A stretch of 64,000 bases of DNA from Geothermobacter ehrlichii (GTDB lineage: Bacteria; Desulfobacterota; Desulfuromonadia; Desulfuromonadales; Geothermobacteraceae). A program made the translations under genes and the position numbers. The notes below the pieces were generated by a model. It worked only from the letters and a program-made list of their open reading frames with translations, made no database searches and had not been told where the DNA came from. The DNA lies in contig NZ_VNIB01000004.1 in assembly GCF_008124615.1 (NCBI RefSeq), positions 1 through 64,000 on the forward strand, written 5' to 3'. This document shows positions 52,041 through 59,392 of this stretch, one piece after another (the first letter of the stretch is position 1; every line of letters starts with the position of its first letter).

Positions 52041-53165
52041 ATGCTCGAAACCATCCGGCAGATCTTCACCGAAACCTTTCTCGGCATCCCCTTAAGCCGC
52101 TTCGCCATGGCCATGGGCATGCTGTTCGTCGGCCTGCTGGCCAAGAAACTGGTCGGCCAGTTCTTCATCCGCGTCCTCTTCCCGCTGGCCGGACGCACCC
52201 GCGGAGATTACGACAACCGGGCCCTGGCCGCCCTGCGCAAGCCGGCGGAACTGCTCGTCTTCATCGGTGGCCTCGCTCTGGCCTTCGAGCTGCTGCGTCT
52301 GCCGACCGAGCCGGTCAACCTCGCCTTCGGCGGCGAGGCGCTGGTCAGGATCCTGGTTACCTTCAGCATCGCCTGGGCGCTGTTCAATCTGGTCGACGTC
52401 ATCGATCTGCTGCTCAGGAGCTGGTCGGGCAAGACCGAGACCGACCTCGACGACCAGCTCGCCCCCTTCATCCGCAAGGCGCTGCGGGTGTTCATCGTCG
52501 CCATGGCGGTGCTGATGGTCATCCAGAACCTCGGCTATTCCATCTCCGGCCTGCTCGCCTCCCTCGGCATCGGCGGCCTCGCCGTCGCCCTGGCCGCCAG
52601 GGACACTCTGGCCAACGTCTTCGGCTCGATCATGATCCTGCTCGACCGCCCCTTCCGCCTGGGCGACTGGATCAAAACCGGCGACCTGGAGGGGACGGTG
52701 GAGGAGGTCGGCTTCCGCTCGACCAAGATCCGCACCTTCGCCAAGACCCTGATTTCGGTTCCCAACTCGGTGATCGCCAACCAGGCGATCAACAACTACT
52801 CGCGCATGCCGAAAAGGCGGATCAAGCTGACCGTCGGCCTGACCTACGACACCGGCCCGGAGCGGATGCGGCAGGCGGTCGAGGGCATCCGCGAGCTGCT
52901 GCGCACCCATCCGGCCATCGACCAGGATTTCTGGCTGGTCAACTTCACCGACTTCGGCCCGTCGTCCCTCGACATCATGGTCTACTGCTTCACCAGAACC
53001 ACCGTCTGGGGCGAATACCTCGACGCCCGCCAGGACCTCTGCTTGAAGATCATGGAACTGCTGGAGGAGATGGGGCTGGAGATCGCCTTCCCCAGCCGCA
53101 CAATCTACCTGCAGCACAAGGAGGGCGACATGGAGCCGGCGACGGCAGAGGAAAGGGGTCGCTGA
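52041..53165 (+). CDS. MscS-family mechanosensitive channel
   Basis: A 374-residue membrane protein: three to four helices in residues 1-155, the pore-lining helix GLLASLGIGGLAVALAARDT, then the MscS beta-domain (LDRPFRLGDWIKTGDLEGTV, ISVPNSVIANQAINNYSR) and an alpha/beta C-terminal domain. It releases solutes on hypo-osmotic shock. It is closed by the shared terminator at 53186. Confidence 0.92.
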   Translation: MLETIRQIFTETFLGIPLSRFAMAMGMLFVGLLAKKLVGQFFIRVLFPLAGRTRGDYDNRALAALRKPAELLVFIGGLALAFELLRLPTEPVNLAFGGEALVRILVTFSIAWALFNLVDVIDLLLRSWSGKTETDLDDQLAPFIRKALRVFIVAMAVLMVIQNLGYSISGLLASLGIGGLAVALAARDTLANVFGSIMILLDRPFRLGDWIKTGDLEGTVEEVGFRSTKIRTFAKTLISVPNSVIANQAINNYSRMPKRRIKLTVGLTYDTGPERMRQAVEGIRELLRTHPAIDQDFWLVNFTDFGPSSLDIMVYCFTRTTVWGEYLDARQDLCLKIMELLEEMGLEIAFPSRTIYLQHKEGDMEPATAEERGR

Positions 53166-53225: not shown

Positions 53226-53660
53226 TCAATCCGCCTCGACCGTGATCTGTTTCGCCTCCCCCGGTGGCTGCTTGGGCAGAACCACCCGCAGCACGCCCAG
53301 TTCGCAGCGGGCGGAGATGCCCGACTCGTCGATACCCGACGGCAGGATGAAAGAGCGCTCGAAGGGGCCGTAGTTGCCCTCGATGCGCTGGTAGCCCTCG
53401 GTCTGCACGAAAGGCCGCTCACCGGAGACGACCAGGTTGTGGCCCTCTATCCTGACGTCGATGGCGTCCTGGGTGACACCCGGCAGCTCGAGGTTGATGA
53501 CGATCTGCCGCTCGTTCTCGCAGATGTCAGCCACCGGCTGCCAGACACGCTCCTCGGCCGGCTCGTCTTCGAGCTGCTCCCGGCTGGCGTCGAGCAGGCG
53601 ATCCATACGCCTCCGGATGTCCTCCAGCTCGGGCAGCGGGTTCCATTTGACCATCGGCAT
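53226..53660 (-). CDS. Small heat-shock protein Hsp20
   Basis: A 144-residue alpha-crystallin-type chaperone. The core runs from PVADICENERQIVINLELPG to the ELGVLRVVLPKQPP tip, which contains the conserved A-x-x-x-G-V-L-like end. It should hold unfolding proteins in oligomers. It lies 86 bases downstream of the Lon-like gene on the same strand, so it completes an operon with the SPFH protein and protease. Confidence 0.92.
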   Translation of the reverse strand: MPMVKWNPLPELEDIRRRMDRLLDASREQLEDEPAEERVWQPVADICENERQIVINLELPGVTQDAIDVRIEGHNLVVSGERPFVQTEGYQRIEGNYGPFERSFILPSGIDESGISARCELGVLRVVLPKQPPGEAKQITVEAD

Positions 53661-53745
53661 GGCAATCCTCCCGGCAACGGAAAAATCGATCGACAGGGGC
53701 CGATTATCGCCCAATTCGCCCCCTTTGCCAAGCCGACAGCAAACG

Positions 53746-56700
53746 TCATGGATGCTGGCCGGCGGCGTCCTGCCGCATGTCGGAGAAGACGGCATGCAGA
53801 CTGAGGTCCCTGTCGCCCGGCTCGCCGAGGTAGTCGCGGATGGCCCGCATCCGCCGCGCGATCTCGGCCTCGGTCTGGTCGCGCAGCTGCCGCAATGCCT
53901 GCCGCAGCTGCTCCTCGCAGCGCGGATGGGGCACGCCGTGCGCCCGGTCGAGTTCGAGCCGGATCCGTTCGCCGACCAGCTCCTGCAGCCGGCGCCGGCT
54001 GTCGTCGCCGAAGAAGAAGACCTCCGGCACCAGGGCCGAAAAACTGGCCACCCCCTGGATGTCGCGCCCCTCGACCCGGTAGGCCTCCAGCAGTTCCGGC
54101 TCGAAATCGCGGTAGTTGGCCAGGGGCACATACATGCGCGGCAGGTACTGCAGCACCTTTTCCGCCTTCTTGTGGTGGCCGCCGATGATGACCGACGCGC
54201 CGACCTCGCCGGGCCGCGCCCCCTTGGTCCAGGGTGCGCCGGTAATGCCGAAGTCGTTGAGCACCGGCAGGTTGAGCAGCACCGACAGGGTGTTGATGGC
54301 CAGGGCGAAGCCGGCCGAAGGCCCGCCGACGCTGTAGGAGGCGGTCAGCAGCTGGTGGTGGATGGTGTAGCCGTCGAGATATTCGCCCAGCACCCGCGAC
54401 ACGTTGAACTCGGGGCAGAGCTGCTGCAGGTAGTTCTCCACCAGGGTCAGGGCCTCCTGGGCGCTCTGCCGGGTCATCTGCACCGCCAGATCGAGTTCGG
54501 CCGCCCCGGGAGCGGTGGTCGACACGGCGCCGGTAACCACGATCTTCTCGGCGAAGACCCGGTAGACCAGGGAGGTGGCGATCGGCAGCAGCACGCCGCT
54601 GGTGTCGTTGGCCCCGACGCCGACCACGAAGCCGACCTGCGGCACCTCCGACAGCTCGGTTTCGAGAAACTTGTCGAGATCCTGCTTCCCCTTGCGGGTC
54701 GGACTTCCCGCCAGCTGCTGCCGGGCGCTCTGCAGGTGCCAGAGGCTGACCGGGTAGTCCTTCTCCTCGAGCAGGTGCAGAAAACGCTGCGCGATCCGGT
54801 CGAGATGCCGCAGCAGCTCCTCCTCGCCCTGCCGCGCCTTGAGGGCCAGGGCGCTGTCGCCGGCGGCCCCCTCGAGCAGTCCAAGCAGAATCTTGTAGTT
54901 GAAGCGGACGAAGCGCGCCCGCTCCTCCATGCTGCCGTCGACGGCCTGCCGCAGCTTCTGCAGCACCTCGATCTCGGTCGCCCGCAGGCTGCGCACCTTT
55001 TCGGCAAAGGCGGTAAAATCGGCCGGCGTCTCGCACAGGCCGCGGGCGGTGCGCACCAGATCGACGTGATCGAGCCCCTCCACCAGCGGGATGCCGGCCA
55101 GCTCCTTGCGGATGATGCGCAGGGCGTCCTCGTCGCGCAGATGGCCGGTGACGTTGAGCACCTTCAGCCGTTTTGAGCGGATCAGCGCCGGATCGAGGAT
55201 GTCGAGCCGGTTGGTGGTCAGCACGGTGAAAACCCGGTTCAGCGGCGTCTCGCCGTCGATGATGGAGAGGAACTTGTTGGTCACCTTGTCGTAGGGACTG
55301 CCTCCCTGCGGGGAACGGCGCGGCGCCACGGCGTCCCCCTCGTCGAAGAAGACCATGGCCGGCGACAGCATCTTGGCGATGTCGTAGACCCGCTCGAGGT
55401 TGGCGACCATCCCCTCCAGGGGGGTCATCGGATCGACCAGGTCGTTCAGCTGCACGGCCAGATCCTGCACCTCGAGATTGTCGCCGAGCCAGGCCTGCAC
55501 CATGTAGGTCTTGCCCGATCCGGGCGGTCCGGTCAGCACCACGCCCTTCTCCTCGCTGACATTGTAGTAGAGGGCGTTGTTGGCCATCTCGGAGAACTCG
55601 TTCTTGATCTGGCCGATGTATTCCGACCACTTGACGGAGCGATCCATCTTGCCGACGACCTTGTTGTAGATGGCGCCGTGGACGTTGCGCGCCACCGCCT
55701 TCAGCGCGTCGCGCACCAGGAACTGGTCGTCGAGGTACTCGGGCTCGAAACCGCCGTTGAGGCTGATCACCGAACCGATCAGCCTGCGGACATAGGCCGG
55801 AGTCATGCGCAGGCTGCGCCCGCGGAAGATGGGGGCCAGCAGCTCCACCGTCCGGTCGAGATCCGTCTCCGACAGCAGACGCCGGGCCGGCGCCGATTCC
55901 TCGCCGAAGGTGAAATTGTGGCGTCGCAGCTCCATGCGCACCACTTCCCGCAGGTTCTCCGGCGTCTGCCAGTATTCGTCGATGTCGATGACCAGGCCGC
56001 CCTCGACGAAACGCCGGTAGATGGTCGGATCGAGCGACTCGGGCTGGTCGGTGGTGGCGATGACCAGGCAATCGCGGCGGCCGTGGGCGATTTCATCGAG
56101 AATGATGTTGGCGGCGTCGACCAGGGTCGACTGCTGCGCCTTCACCGGGCTGGTCTGGTCGGGACGGCCGAAGGCGCTGTGCGCCTCCTCCAGGTGCCGG
56201 ATACAGAGCCGCCACGGATCGCCCATCGCCTTGCGCAGGTAGTTGCCCGGCTCGCCGGCCCAGGCGGTCTGGTAGTCGTTGGGAGTGATCATGGCGTAGT
56301 CGACCAGCACCCCTTCTTCCGCCAGGGTCGAAAGCGCCCGGCTGATCCGTTTGCGGTAGAGATACTTGACCAGCGGCAGGCGGGAAAGGAAGCGCAGCAG
56401 TTCGACCTTGCGGTGCCGCTCGATGGCCACCGCCAGCTCGAAGTCGACATCCTCCAGCCGGGCCCAGACCGGCTGGTCGGCCATGACCTCCTCCTTCTTC
56501 GCCTTGAGGTCGACCACCGGCCTCGCCTCCTTGCGGAAGATCGCCTGCTCCATCGCCTCCTGCACGGTGACGCTCTTGCCGCTGCCGGAGGGGCCGATCA
56601 CCAGCACCAGTGGATTGCGCGGCACCGACGGATCCTCGCTGTACTCCTTGAGCACGTGCACGTGATAGATCTTTTCGAACAGCTCCCGCAGCGCCGGAGG

Positions 56701-57084
56701 CACGTAGATGTCAGCGGTCAGCTCCTCGAGTCGGTGCCGCAGGTAGCGGTAGTCGTGCAGATCGAGTTCCCGCTCGAGGATCTTCGCCCAGGTGGCGGCG
56801 GCATTCTGCGAACCGGAGACCTCGATGCGCCGCCGCCAGTCGGAGAGCTTTTCCGGATCGCGCAAATGGACGAAGCGCCGCTCGCGCGGCCAGAAGGTGC
56901 GTCGCCACCAGTCGGCCAGCAGACGGAAGAGAGAATGCGAGGGGTGGAACTGGCGCAGGCGGCGCAGGACGAAAAGGCGGGTTTCGAAACTCCAGTGACC
57001 GATCAGCTCCTCGATCTGCCGGATGCGCGTCTCGGACAGCTTGACGTAGACCGGACTGCGGGTCTTGCGGAAGCGTCCCATCAC
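53746..57084 (-). CDS. Tandem-AAA+ ATPase with C-terminal Lon-type protease domain
   Basis: A 1112-residue soluble protein. Residues 1-140 are a basic helical N-region. AAA domain 1 has Walker A GPSGSGKS (164-171) and an odd Walker B in CIRHLEEA. AAA domain 2 has GPPGSGKT (519-526) and FFDEGDAV (579-586), sensor TTN. A helical linker leads to a Lon (S16) protease domain: catalytic Ser923 in GGPSAGFAL, with the partner lysine probably among K972/K973/K976 in GGHHKKAEK. A six- to seven-residue insertion (around TKGARPGEVG) precedes that strand compared with Lon, so the dyad needs checking. Its start overlaps the SPFH gene stop (ATGA), and Hsp20 follows. No Lon N-domain is present. Confidence 0.85.
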   Translation of the reverse strand: MMGRFRKTRSPVYVKLSETRIRQIEELIGHWSFETRLFVLRRLRQFHPSHSLFRLLADWWRRTFWPRERRFVHLRDPEKLSDWRRRIEVSGSQNAAATWAKILERELDLHDYRYLRHRLEELTADIYVPPALRELFEKIYHVHVLKEYSEDPSVPRNPLVLVIGPSGSGKSVTVQEAMEQAIFRKEARPVVDLKAKKEEVMADQPVWARLEDVDFELAVAIERHRKVELLRFLSRLPLVKYLYRKRISRALSTLAEEGVLVDYAMITPNDYQTAWAGEPGNYLRKAMGDPWRLCIRHLEEAHSAFGRPDQTSPVKAQQSTLVDAANIILDEIAHGRRDCLVIATTDQPESLDPTIYRRFVEGGLVIDIDEYWQTPENLREVVRMELRRHNFTFGEESAPARRLLSETDLDRTVELLAPIFRGRSLRMTPAYVRRLIGSVISLNGGFEPEYLDDQFLVRDALKAVARNVHGAIYNKVVGKMDRSVKWSEYIGQIKNEFSEMANNALYYNVSEEKGVVLTGPPGSGKTYMVQAWLGDNLEVQDLAVQLNDLVDPMTPLEGMVANLERVYDIAKMLSPAMVFFDEGDAVAPRRSPQGGSPYDKVTNKFLSIIDGETPLNRVFTVLTTNRLDILDPALIRSKRLKVLNVTGHLRDEDALRIIRKELAGIPLVEGLDHVDLVRTARGLCETPADFTAFAEKVRSLRATEIEVLQKLRQAVDGSMEERARFVRFNYKILLGLLEGAAGDSALALKARQGEEELLRHLDRIAQRFLHLLEEKDYPVSLWHLQSARQQLAGSPTRKGKQDLDKFLETELSEVPQVGFVVGVGANDTSGVLLPIATSLVYRVFAEKIVVTGAVSTTAPGAAELDLAVQMTRQSAQEALTLVENYLQQLCPEFNVSRVLGEYLDGYTIHHQLLTASYSVGGPSAGFALAINTLSVLLNLPVLNDFGITGAPWTKGARPGEVGASVIIGGHHKKAEKVLQYLPRMYVPLANYRDFEPELLEAYRVEGRDIQGVASFSALVPEVFFFGDDSRRRLQELVGERIRLELDRAHGVPHPRCEEQLRQALRQLRDQTEAEIARRMRAIRDYLGEPGDRDLSLHAVFSDMRQDAAGQHP

Positions 57085-58019
57085 TCACCCTTGCCGCCGG
57101 CAGCTGGCGCCGCCGGCGGCGGCAGCGCCAGCGACGGCGTGAAGTTCGCGTTGTTGAGTACGAAGGTGTTCTGCCCGGTCTGGTTCTTCTCGTAGGCCGT
57201 GGCCCACTTCTGCTGGTTGAGAAAGGCGAACAGGGCGGCGGTGTCCTTCTCCTGGAGCCCGAGACTGTCGCGCATCTGCCGGATCGCCTCGGAATAGGCG
57301 GCGTAGAGCTTGCGGGTGCGACTCGCCTCCTGGTCGGCGGCGTAGTTCTCCGCCTCGGCGATCAGCTCCCGCCGCTTCTTCTCCTCACTGGCCTGGGCCA
57401 GCTTCTCGCCGAAGCGGGTGTCACGCAGCACGAAGGAAACCACCTCGATGCCGTATTTCTCCTCCAGGGTCGGTCCGCCGCGGTTGATGGCCCGTTCCTT
57501 GAGCGCCCGGAAGATCTCTTCCTTGATCCGTTCCCGGCTCGAAATCAGGTCATCGACCGGATGTCCCTGCATGACGTCCTTGACGATGCCGTCGAAATCG
57601 GTCTGCAGCAGCACCTGCGCCGTCTTGTTCTCAATCCCCCAGCGCTCGAGGTCACGAATCCGGTAGGTGAGCATGGCGCTGGTCCACAGCGCCACGTTCC
57701 CCCGCGAGATGATCCGCTGAGGCTCCGCCGTGCCGCCAAGGTAGAGCTCCTGGTTCATCAGCGGCACTTCCAGTTCGATGCGGGTGAAAAAGGGCAGCCG
57801 CCCGTGCCAGCCGACCTCGCTCACCACCCGACGCTCGCCGGAAAGGTCCTCGAGGATCACGGCGTAGTTGCGGCGCACCTTGTAGAAGGTTCGGGTGGCG
57901 TAGACCAGGGCGAAAAGACCGTAGAGCACCACACCGAGAAAAAGGAGCAAAAGGCCCTGTTTCAGATATCGCTTCACCCGGACCCGCTGCAAGAAGCGGT
58001 AGCGCTGTTCCTCCTGCAC
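57081..58019 (-). CDS. SPFH/band-7 membrane protein (HflC/stomatin-like)
   Basis: A 312-residue protein, GTG start at 58019 supported by GGGGAGG seven bases upstream; the apparent upstream extension is cysteine/arginine-rich and lacks a ribosome site. One transmembrane helix (22-41, GLLLLFLGVVLYGLFALVY) is followed by the SPFH domain (VILEDLSGERRVVSEVGWHG...YLGGTAEPQRIISRGNVALW) and a charged coiled coil (KLAQASEEKKRRELIAEAEN). This is the HflC/HflK topology. It overlaps the Lon-like gene by four bases, so translation is coupled: membrane scaffold plus protease, an HflKC-FtsH analogue by inference. Confidence 0.85.
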   Translation of the reverse strand: MQEEQRYRFLQRVRVKRYLKQGLLLLFLGVVLYGLFALVYATRTFYKVRRNYAVILEDLSGERRVVSEVGWHGRLPFFTRIELEVPLMNQELYLGGTAEPQRIISRGNVALWTSAMLTYRIRDLERWGIENKTAQVLLQTDFDGIVKDVMQGHPVDDLISSRERIKEEIFRALKERAINRGGPTLEEKYGIEVVSFVLRDTRFGEKLAQASEEKKRRELIAEAENYAADQEASRTRKLYAAYSEAIRQMRDSLGLQEKDTAALFAFLNQQKWATAYEKNQTGQNTFVLNNANFTPSLALPPPAAPAAGGKGE

Positions 58020-58264
58020 GTCATCACCTCCCCGACATTTGAAAAAAATTATAACACCTTTATGGCCGCCTTCCCTCCCGCACCGAAAAAGGAGTGCCCG
58101 CCAACCGGCAAACCAACATCCGGGGACTGTCTTGCGGCTGGCGCCGCCCGGCGCGTGACGTCTTCGACAACCACACAAAACATCGTTATGGAATTGCCGG
58201 TTCAAAGCAGATTGCAGCTGTGCTAATGTGAAGCGACCACTCCCTCGACCACACAGGAGGAGCC
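58020..58264. other. Divergent promoter region of SPFH operon and DUF362 gene
   Basis: 245 bases, no ORF with ribosome site. AT-rich around 58040-58060 (GAAAAAAATTATAACACC). This probably contains the SPFH operon promoter. Confidence 0.5.
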
Positions 58265-59392
58265 ATGTCCAGCACGGTTTACTTCGCCAACATTCGCGCC
58301 GGCTACCGGGAAAACCTGTTTGACAAGCTTGAGCGGCTGCTCGAAACCGCCGGCTGCGGCGAACGGGTCAGCCGCGGAGACCTGATTGCCGTCAAGGTCC
58401 ATTTCGGAGAGAAGGGCGGCCACGCCTACATCCGGCCGACCTTTCTGCGCCGCATCGTCGACACGGTCAGAAAATGCGGCGGCACACCCTTTCTGACCGA
58501 TTCGTGCACCCTCTATCCGGGAGAACGCAAAGAGGCGGTTTCGGCCCTGAAGTGCGCCATCGAAAACGGTTTCGACTTCGCCGTGGTCGGCGCGCCACTG
58601 ATCATGTGCGACGGGCTGCGCGGCCACAGCGCCCGCAAGGTGGCGATCGAGGGCGAGCTGCTCAGGGAGGCGGACATCGCCAGCGGCATCCTCGACGCCG
58701 ACGGTATGCTGGTGGTCAGCCATTTCAAATGCCACGAACTGACCGGCTTCGGCGGCGCCATCAAGAATCTCGGCATGGGCTGCTCGAGCCGCAGCGGCAA
58801 AATGGAACAGCACTGCAATCTGGCCCCGACGGTGAAGGAAGAGGCATGCGTCTCCTGCGGCGCCTGCATCCGGGGCTGCGCCCACGAGGCGATTCGTTCG
58901 ATCAAGGGCAAGGCGCGCATCGACGCCGACAAATGCGTCGGCTGCGCCCGCTGCATCACCGTCTGTCCGGAGACGGCCATCCGCGTCAACTGGGGTTCGG
59001 AATCGGCCACCGTCATGCGCAAGATGGCTGAATACGCCCTGGCGGCCGTGCAGGACAAGCGCGACAAGACCCTCTACATCAACTTCGTCACCCAGGTCTC
59101 ACCCCTGTGCGACTGTTACGGGCATACGGACGCCCCCATCGTCCCCGACCAGGGCATCCTGATAAGCGACGACCCGGTGGCCCTCGACCAGGCCTGTGCC
59201 GACCTGGTCAACCAGGCCGAGGCCCTGCCGGGCACGGCCCTGAGCTGCAACCTGAAACCGGGAGAGGACAAGTTCCGCGGCCTGCATCCGGAGATCGACT
59301 GGGAAATCACCCTCGAACACGCCGAAAAGGTGGGGCTGGGACAGCGCGCCTACAGGCTGGAGCAGCTGGCGCCCAAGGGAAAGGACTGGTAA
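58265..59392 (+). CDS. DUF362 domain protein with two ferredoxin clusters
   Basis: A 375-residue soluble protein. The DUF362 domain (about 1-180) includes DLIAVKVHFGEKGGHAYIRP, SDSCTLYP-type segments and GGAIKNLGMGCSSR. A double [4Fe-4S] insert follows: CVSCGACIRGCAHEAI and CVGCARCITVCPETAI. A C-terminal part (NFVTQVSPLCDCYGHTDAP) closes it. DUF362 proteins are widespread in anaerobes, presumed to couple electron transfer to an unknown substrate. GGAGG precedes the ATG. Confidence 0.88.
   Translation: MSSTVYFANIRAGYRENLFDKLERLLETAGCGERVSRGDLIAVKVHFGEKGGHAYIRPTFLRRIVDTVRKCGGTPFLTDSCTLYPGERKEAVSALKCAIENGFDFAVVGAPLIMCDGLRGHSARKVAIEGELLREADIASGILDADGMLVVSHFKCHELTGFGGAIKNLGMGCSSRSGKMEQHCNLAPTVKEEACVSCGACIRGCAHEAIRSIKGKARIDADKCVGCARCITVCPETAIRVNWGSESATVMRKMAEYALAAVQDKRDKTLYINFVTQVSPLCDCYGHTDAPIVPDQGILISDDPVALDQACADLVNQAEALPGTALSCNLKPGEDKFRGLHPEIDWEITLEHAEKVGLGQRAYRLEQLAPKGKDW

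Follow-up and report, generated by a model that had tools for sequence, protein, structure and literature searches.

An SPFH membrane protein and a tandem-AAA protease with a Lon-type peptidase domain are encoded by a conserved gene pair in Geothermobacter ehrlichii and its relatives

Two adjacent genes of Geothermobacter ehrlichii, one for an SPFH membrane protein and one for a protease with two AAA modules and a Lon-type (S16) peptidase domain, form a strict two-gene unit that is real, discrete and deeply conserved, and the pair is fixed in many sulfur- and metal-respiring bacteria. It was found in a window of 64,000 nucleotides (nt; positions 1–64,000 of contig NZ_VNIB01000004.1, assembly GCF_008124615.1), where the SPFH gene (57081–58019; GTG start, 312 amino acids [aa]) stands directly upstream of the protease gene (53746–57081; ATG start, 1111 aa) and a gene for an Hsp20 protein (53226–53660; 144 aa) follows; all features are on the minus strand unless marked (+). 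On balance, the pair is judged to encode an SPFH-tethered, p97-like, two-component ATP-dependent protease at the inner membrane that would be a functional analogue of FtsH-HflKC, a reading held with modest confidence.

Conservation of the gene pair

Two family-specific peptides were used to scan 84,980 species genomes; this gave 121 relatives, and 80 of these were kept as named loci. Their records are titled as Desulfuromonas-, Geobacter- or Desulfobacter-type, ‘Deltaproteobacteria’, ‘Proteobacteria’ or just ‘bacterium’ (class names are a reading of these titles), and the hosts include Geothermobacter hydrogeniphilus, Malonomonas rubra, Desulfobacter latus, Desulfocicer vacuolatum and Desulfosediminicola flagellatus. 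The SPFH gene was immediately 5′ of the protease gene in 79 of the 80 loci, at intergenic distances of −71 to +202 nt, the one exception (L111) being a contig that begins inside the protease gene. An even sample of 395 genomes from the phylum was searched with profiles of the whole protease (E 1e-50), its S16 part (1e-10), its AAA1 part (1e-10) and the SPFH protein (1e-15). All four profiles matched one common set of 11 genomes, in which the two genes were adjacent by coordinates in every case (11/11); the remaining 384 had neither gene, and at the thresholds used no AAA1-only, S16-only or SPFH-only cousins occurred among the 395. Because the four profiles mark identical genomes and none of the other 384, the family is discrete, with the reservation that a weak second copy could escape, scoring in the genome searches being limited to a few top candidates in each genome.

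Within the host order, the protease was present in 39 of 136 genomes (22 of 53 genera), the SPFH protein in 38 and both in 37. The two genomes with the protease only (G078 and G132) hold just fragments that start within the first bases of their contigs, and the single genome with the SPFH protein only (G025) is 73% complete. For the 29 order relatives with loci returned (38 with a match), the SPFH gene was adjacent in all 29; the named loci and the genome samples share organisms and are not independent. When flanking open reading frames (ORFs; ≥90 residues, flanks of up to 6 kb and often shorter) were clustered, no neighbour family besides the pair itself occurred in more than 11 loci. Distances among the proteases and among the SPFH proteins co-varied (r = 0.92 over 75 loci, with an identical nearest neighbour in 49 of 75), which would also be expected from common descent alone.

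The pairing is far beyond chance. The two genes could still be ordinary neighbours, co-transcribed by chance, that encode an unusual Lon-like ATPase and an SPFH protein independent of it, as the host has other SPFH and Lon proteins; this explanation is strongly disfavoured by the strict pairing across relatives while other neighbours change, and is very improbable. The host genome contains three further SPFH proteins, two of them encoded by neighbouring genes that look like hflK-hflC (as read from position and score), and, besides the enzyme described here, three strong and two weak Lon_C matches. Given these further SPFH genes and Lon_C matches, the pair is an addition to the standard set rather than a replacement for it. 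One full-length match to the protease was found in the genome, along with two partial ones.

The junction of the two genes reads GAGTGATGGG. The ATG start of the protease aligns with a Met1 found in all 76 aligned sequences and gives an overlap of a single base between stop and start (TGATG); with the other, upstream GTG start at 57084 the overlap is four bases (GTGA). A preliminary description of the locus had given a four-base ATGA overlap, which is wrong for either start, as is its spacing of 86 bases between the protease and Hsp20 genes (85 nt); its Ser923 becomes Ser922 when the ATG start is used. In nine of the 79 loci (e.g. L035, L036 and L061) the SPFH frame and the protease gene overlap by 71 nt, which exceeds the overlap in the window and suggests translational coupling.

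Architecture of the protease

Two AAA modules had been proposed for the protease, and the Pfam AAA family (PF00004) matches the window protein at both sites, with AAA1 matched in 23 of 24 members scanned. AAA1 (residues 120–480; 55642–56724) has an invariant Walker A of the form GxSGSGKS/T and a Walker B that ends in Glu-Glu (E298-E299) instead of Asp-Glu in 76 of 76 sequences, confirming the altered Walker B of the preliminary description. Its presumed sensor 1 is Asp in 75 of 76 sequences, R356 and R357 are invariant, and a presumed pore loop, assigned by eye, has the motif A(L/W)(A/S)GEPGN. AAA2 (residues 481–720; 54922–55641) is of the classical FtsH/Cdc48/Rpt type with complete Walker A and B motifs; D580 and E581, as well as the Walker A lysines of both modules (K169 and K524), are invariant in all 76 sequences, as are sensor-1 N624, R635 and R638. 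On the basis of these conserved motif residues, both modules probably bind nucleotide, with AAA2 the better candidate for hydrolysis.

AAA2 is clearly a classical AAA module, akin to p97 and FtsH. Its profile scores 75.5 bits against E. coli FtsH and 62.8 against an FtsH-like protein of the host, compared to 6.4 against E. coli Lon and 5.1 against one host Lon (the Lon references were E. coli Lon and host Lon L132 only, the L133 and L134 frames evidently not being Lon). The best phmmer matches of the protease among Protein Data Bank (PDB) sequences are p97/Cdc48, mainly across AAA2. An AlphaFold2 model of the protease (mean predicted local distance difference test [pLDDT] 77, predicted TM-score [pTM] 0.57) was matched by Foldseek to p97/Cdc48 over 600–700 columns of the tandem AAA region (E = 6e-19). 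In fold comparisons AAA2 aligned with Rpt, Msp1 and p97 at Z 19–22 over ~250 residues (best for Rpt subunits: Z 22.2, root-mean-square deviation [rmsd] 3.4, 257 residues), and chains of NVL, Rix7 and p97 aligned across both modules (~480–500 residues, Z 19–21, rmsd 9.6–10.3; p97 9yrc_B, 485 residues, Z 19.4, rmsd 9.9). AAA1 also appears to be a classical AAA module, a less certain assignment than that of AAA2: its profile is weakly nearer FtsH (8.1 bits for E. coli FtsH, 0.6 for Lon), among PDB sequences it retrieves only P-loop matches, and the fold comparison barely tests it. The protease falls far below the cut-off of the CDC48 family model (81.4 against 802.65 bits).

The S16 domain (residues 775–1040; 53962–54759), also part of the architecture first proposed, is likewise supported. 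PF05362 was matched in 24 of 24 members scanned, and both the expected catalytic serine (Ser922, in GGPSAG; codon 54316–54318) and the expected catalytic lysine (Lys972, in GGHxKK; codon 54166–54168) are invariant in 76 of 76 sequences, the lysine standing at GG+4 as does K722 of E. coli Lon. The Lon_C match at residues 805–949 is under the Pfam cut-off for the whole protein (19.2 against 21.1 bits) and passes for the isolated domain (24.3 bits) and in the genome search (22.1 bits); the NCBIfam lon model passes over one stretch only, 804–948. Between Ser922 and Lys972 lie 49 residues, 7 more than the 42 of E. coli Lon (S679/K722); the available part of PMC9569914 gives the separation as exactly 42 residues in LonA and LonB. 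Against the PDB, the S16 profile retrieved Lon protease domains, headed by two entries whose deposited name is protease La homologue (1xhk, E = 7e-7, and 1z0b). We take these two to be archaeal LonB domains. A further entry, 1z0w, is named AfLonB in the available part of PMC9569914. Among the matches listed by Foldseek and VIA there was no Lon chain, which counts neither way because AAA modules fill the listings and the S16 region is poorly predicted. A zinc protease was rejected as a candidate, with HExxH in 0 of 76 sequences.

No LON N-domain better than about E = 0.016 was found among the 25 best of 38 Pfam matches, and the profile of the N-region scored 0.2 bits against E. coli Lon. A convincing transmembrane segment is likewise absent from the protease: no 19-residue stretch exceeds a mean hydropathy of 2.07 in the 76 sequences, and the most hydrophobic stretches fall within the S16 core. 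The description of the enzyme as ‘not an ordinary Lon’ thus holds for its tandem AAA modules and S16 C-domain, with Lon-type character confined to the last third. Since AAA2 is classical rather than Lon-type, a ‘soluble double-ring Lon-type enzyme’ understates it. The membrane-protease model survives the refuting conditions that the preliminary description had set for it, because homologues of the protease do not regularly occur in the absence of the SPFH gene and the Ser-Lys pair is kept.

The SPFH protein and the proposed complex

The SPFH protein carries a Band_7/SPFH domain (65.1 bits against a gathering score of 23.6; E = 1.1e-17). It falls short of the HflC model TIGR01932 (23.7 bits against a cut-off of 134.4), and no HflK model occurs among its three NCBIfam matches. 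A model of the monomer (pLDDT 74, pTM 0.53, residues 278–312 under 50) is nearest in fold to HflK/C (7vhq, E = 5e-14) and prohibitins (Z 15.0, rmsd 5.4 over 198 residues), and also matches stomatin SPFH domains (Z 13–14, rmsd 1.8–2.3 over 106–113 residues).

Three segments of the protein stand out in an alignment of 78 sequences. A conserved basic N-terminal tail (residues 9–21; 57957–57995), predicted to be cytosolic, includes R12, which is invariant (78/78), and is followed by the single predicted transmembrane helix (residues 23–41; 57897–57953), with Y33 and Y40 also invariant (78/78). A conserved C-terminal tail (residues 263–289, LFxFLNQQKWATAYEKNQ.GQNTFVLN; 57153–57233) aligns with the C-terminal part of HflC and may act as a cage cap. 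Mean entropy is 1.46 bits for residues 9–17, 1.90 for 18–41 and 0.73 for the C-terminal tail. In L041 (SPFH gene from 5070), an in-frame TAA removes the last variable residues just past this tail, and the protein is probably still functional. Net charge makes the N-flank of the helix the more basic side in 65 of 78 sequences, and a count of Lys+Arg does so in 71 of 78 (with 4 ties), suggesting an N-terminus inside the cell and a periplasmic SPFH domain.

In the favoured model, where physical complex, hexameric ring, topology, proteolysis and substrates are all putative, the SPFH subunit would, like HflK/C, form oligomers in the inner membrane; its N-terminus would face the cytosol and its cage is predicted to be periplasmic. 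The short, conserved, basic cytosolic tails, possibly together with the transmembrane segments, would hold a soluble AAA-AAA-S16 hexamer at the cytosolic face of the membrane, which makes residues 9–21 the candidate docking site for the protease. Substrates would be extracted and unfolded by the two AAA rings and degraded by the Lon-type Ser-Lys domain. Compared to FtsH-HflKC, the membrane part would thereby be moved to the SPFH partner, the motor would be p97-like, and an S16 blade would replace the zinc protease.

Several observations weigh against this model. A close pairing of genes in an operon is not proof that their products form a complex. If the cage is periplasmic, only ~20 residues per subunit would face the protease. 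On the protease side, the presumed pore loops have an aliphatic residue in AAA2 (67/76) and Leu in AAA1 (49/76), making the strength of threading uncertain; whole-model TM-scores to p97 are low (TMq 0.17–0.26), with an rmsd above 10 Å in Foldseek; and the N-terminal half of the S16 domain (798–865 and 906–921) is poorly predicted, with pLDDT under 50. The topology call is itself weak: both flanks of the helix are basic, with a mean net charge of +2.5 after it, and in E. coli controls net charge was right for HflC (2 vs 0) and QmcA and tied for HflK (2 vs 2), while a Lys+Arg count would miscall both HflC and HflK. By hhalign, the SPFH protein is also nearer QmcA (E 6.6e-7, 92%) than HflC (6.6e-4, 27%) or HflK (0.019, 2.5%).

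The hhalign result, the basic region after the helix and the weakness of the charge rule on HflK would be compatible with the opposite, QmcA-like topology, in which the SPFH protein forms a cytoplasmic cage that encloses the AAA-AAA-S16 hexamer; a cytoplasmic cage is described for QmcA-YbbJ in the available part of PMC13086221. However, the basic N-terminal tail of ~20 residues and the net-charge excess of the N-flank favour an inside N-terminus, and in E. coli QmcA only Met precedes the helix, so that a cytosolic cage is considered unlikely, if far from negligible. The strong conservation of the C-terminal tail could alternatively indicate that the enzyme processes this tail of its partner to control cage assembly, with general proteolysis secondary. 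There is precedent in Pyrococcus, where, in the PH1510-PH1511 pair, a serine protease cleaves the C-terminus of the stomatin encoded in its operon, according to the available parts of PMC10153343 and PMC13086221. With the N-terminus inside, however, the tail would be periplasmic and beyond the reach of a cytosolic protease, and its conservation could also be explained by its match to the C-terminal part of HflC; such a processing role is quite improbable. The inner-membrane, SPFH-tethered protease with a periplasmic cage is retained as the preferred model.

The protease N-terminus

Residues 1–45 of the protease (56947–57081), the ‘basic N-region’ of the preliminary description, form a candidate ribbon-helix-helix (RHH) domain, for which the evidence is moderate. 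The model predicts a beta-alpha-alpha arrangement, with a strand at 11–15 and helices at 17–28 and 32–44. By hhalign, the region scored 14.4 in a 33-column alignment with a profile built from 30 RHH proteins, compared to a mean of 9.1 (sd 2.1) for column shuffles, of which 10 of 400 reached 14.4 and none did so with ≥30 columns; a helix-turn-helix control gave 11.8 over 13 columns. With an RHH hidden Markov model (HMM), the scores of 35 of 76 N-termini exceeded the 95th percentile of shuffled sequences; the best was 17.0 bits, and shuffles reached at most 9.4. The NCBIfam model of the CdrS regulator, presumably an RHH protein, matched two of 28 members (best E = 0.0063), but these matches are not specific, as an unrelated DinG-type model matched five of 28 in the same scan (best E = 0.004).

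An RHH-like head would be compatible with a membrane-linked regulator, in which DNA or a regulator would be the ligand of the N-domain and the pair would link a signal at the membrane to the turnover of a DNA-associated substrate. The predicted fold, the profile alignment and the HMM and CdrS matches are in its favour, yet Pfam, searched to E = 10, gave no RHH family for the N-terminus except HicB_lk_antitox in one member (E = 0.12), and a PDB profile search of the N-terminus gave no RHH match. Further, the would-be DNA-facing positions are, in our judgement, variable, and RHH folds can also merely dimerise. The regulator is rated as fairly improbable.

Hsp20, regulation and neighbouring genes

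The preliminary description had the SPFH, protease and Hsp20 genes as one operon. Gene coordinates and Pfam matches (HSP20, E = 2.1e-18) bear out their common strand and order, and the SPFH-protease part of the unit stands across relatives; the Hsp20 part does not. Homologues of the window's Hsp20 were found by tblastn at only three of the 80 named loci, in one case at a distance of 1.3 kb, and in five of 29 order relatives (flanks ≤1.5 kb). Downstream DNA of ≥1 kb was available for 65 of the named loci, and a very divergent Hsp20 could escape tblastn. Hsp20 was rejected as a third component on these counts, which mark it as a local addition, a lineage-specific neighbour outside the conserved unit.

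A link to heat shock, also suggested earlier, found no support. Strict sigma32, CIRCE and sigma54 patterns occurred in 0 of 76 upstream regions (up to 250 nt), a test of little power because the chance expectation is also 0.0. An extended −10 promoter-like element, TGTTATAAT (58048–58056), lies 5′ of the SPFH gene and is also present in five relatives; TGnTATAAT occurred in six of 76 upstream regions, compared to 0.6 expected from shuffles.

A defence system was considered and rejected: PADLOC matched only AAA-containing models (IetA ×4, TRIP13 ×2, mad8 and MkoA), with no match for the SPFH protein or Hsp20. No phage or plasmid record had one place covering 80% of the protease.

A second SPFH-linked set adjoins the protease operon in nine loci (L077, L081–L084, L086, L092, L101 and L102), where a convergent cluster with a FloA-like gene lies on the opposite strand downstream of the protease. 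The FloA-like member of L102 was scanned (Pfam FloA, E = 9e-159), and an NfeD-like gene of these clusters was present in seven loci and an NfeD1b-like gene in six (one member of each scanned). In the window, a divergent gene (58265–59392 (+)) encodes a DUF362/4Fe-4S ferredoxin-like protein with a homologue near the operon in seven named loci (L033–L038 and L040), and a gene for an MscS-type mechanosensitive channel (52041–53165 (+)) is convergent with the Hsp20 gene.

Relation to known systems

Like FtsH-HflKC and the m-AAA protease with prohibitin, the pair would combine an SPFH assembly with an ATP-dependent AAA protease at the membrane, and the SPFH fold and the FtsH-like AAA2 fit this likeness. 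Unlike FtsH (M41), the enzyme has an S16 Ser-Lys peptidase in place of the HExxH zinc site; it also differs from the FtsH-HflKC system in having two AAA modules and no evident transmembrane segment, and in having one SPFH gene, rather than two, fixed beside the protease gene. With the Lon proteins (LonA, LonB, LonBA and LonC) it shares the S16 C-domain, the GPSAG serine (with Pro before Ser as in LonA) and the lysine at the Lon position. In the Lon family, an HCLR-clade AAA+ module precedes the protease domain (PMC9569914, available part), whereas here AAA2 is classical, as AAA1 probably is, and the two modules stand in tandem, no LON N-domain as in LonA was found, no membrane anchor as in LonB lies inside the AAA module, and the Ser-Lys gap is longer. 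The tandem AAA region resembles p97/Cdc48 and the other type II AAA proteins NVL and Rix7, which differ in that the enzyme here has a covalently fused S16 peptidase, a Glu-Glu Walker B in AAA1 and a score far below the CDC48 cut-off. The PH1510-PH1511 and NfeD1b-SPFH operons also join a serine protease gene to an SPFH gene (PMC2636767, available part), but the partner there is a ClpP-like membrane protease and not an AAA machine.

A 2009 study of 497 genomes defined 12 SPFH subfamilies and reported that subgroups without NfeD neighbours have no accompanying genes identifiably conserved with those of other SPFH members; the available part names no Lon-like SPFH partner, and no word of the text begins with Desulfo or Geobacter (PMC2636767). 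Only two deltaproteobacterial genomes were covered by a 2008 survey of Lon architectures; the available part of its architecture table has no AAA-AAA-Lon_C row, the Pfam labels there not separating AAA clades (PMC2605481). As the preliminary description had supposed, no system composed of an SPFH protein and an AAA-AAA-S16 enzyme turned up in the open-access literature searched, a scope outside which most subscription papers and all bioRxiv preprints fall.

The pair looks like an undescribed membrane quality-control machine. It would be a variation on the known association of SPFH proteins with AAA proteases and not biology of a new kind, and its combination of domains had no counterpart in the literature searched. 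It is quite possible, if short of probable, that it represents a third kind of bacterial membrane-associated AAA+ protease beside FtsH and LonB/LonBA, in which a p97-like tandem AAA motor and a Lon-type peptidase would have an obligate SPFH tether and an RHH-like head would perhaps bring DNA-bound or regulatory substrates to the membrane. To our knowledge, work on the still open question of how SPFH cages control AAA proteases has centred on FtsH-HflKC and prohibitin. With an FtsH/p97-type AAA motor placed before an S16 peptidase, the two adjacent genes look like an independent solution, made of different parts, to the control of an AAA protease by an SPFH protein, and may offer a simple system of two proteins in which to study the contribution of an SPFH partner to its protease.

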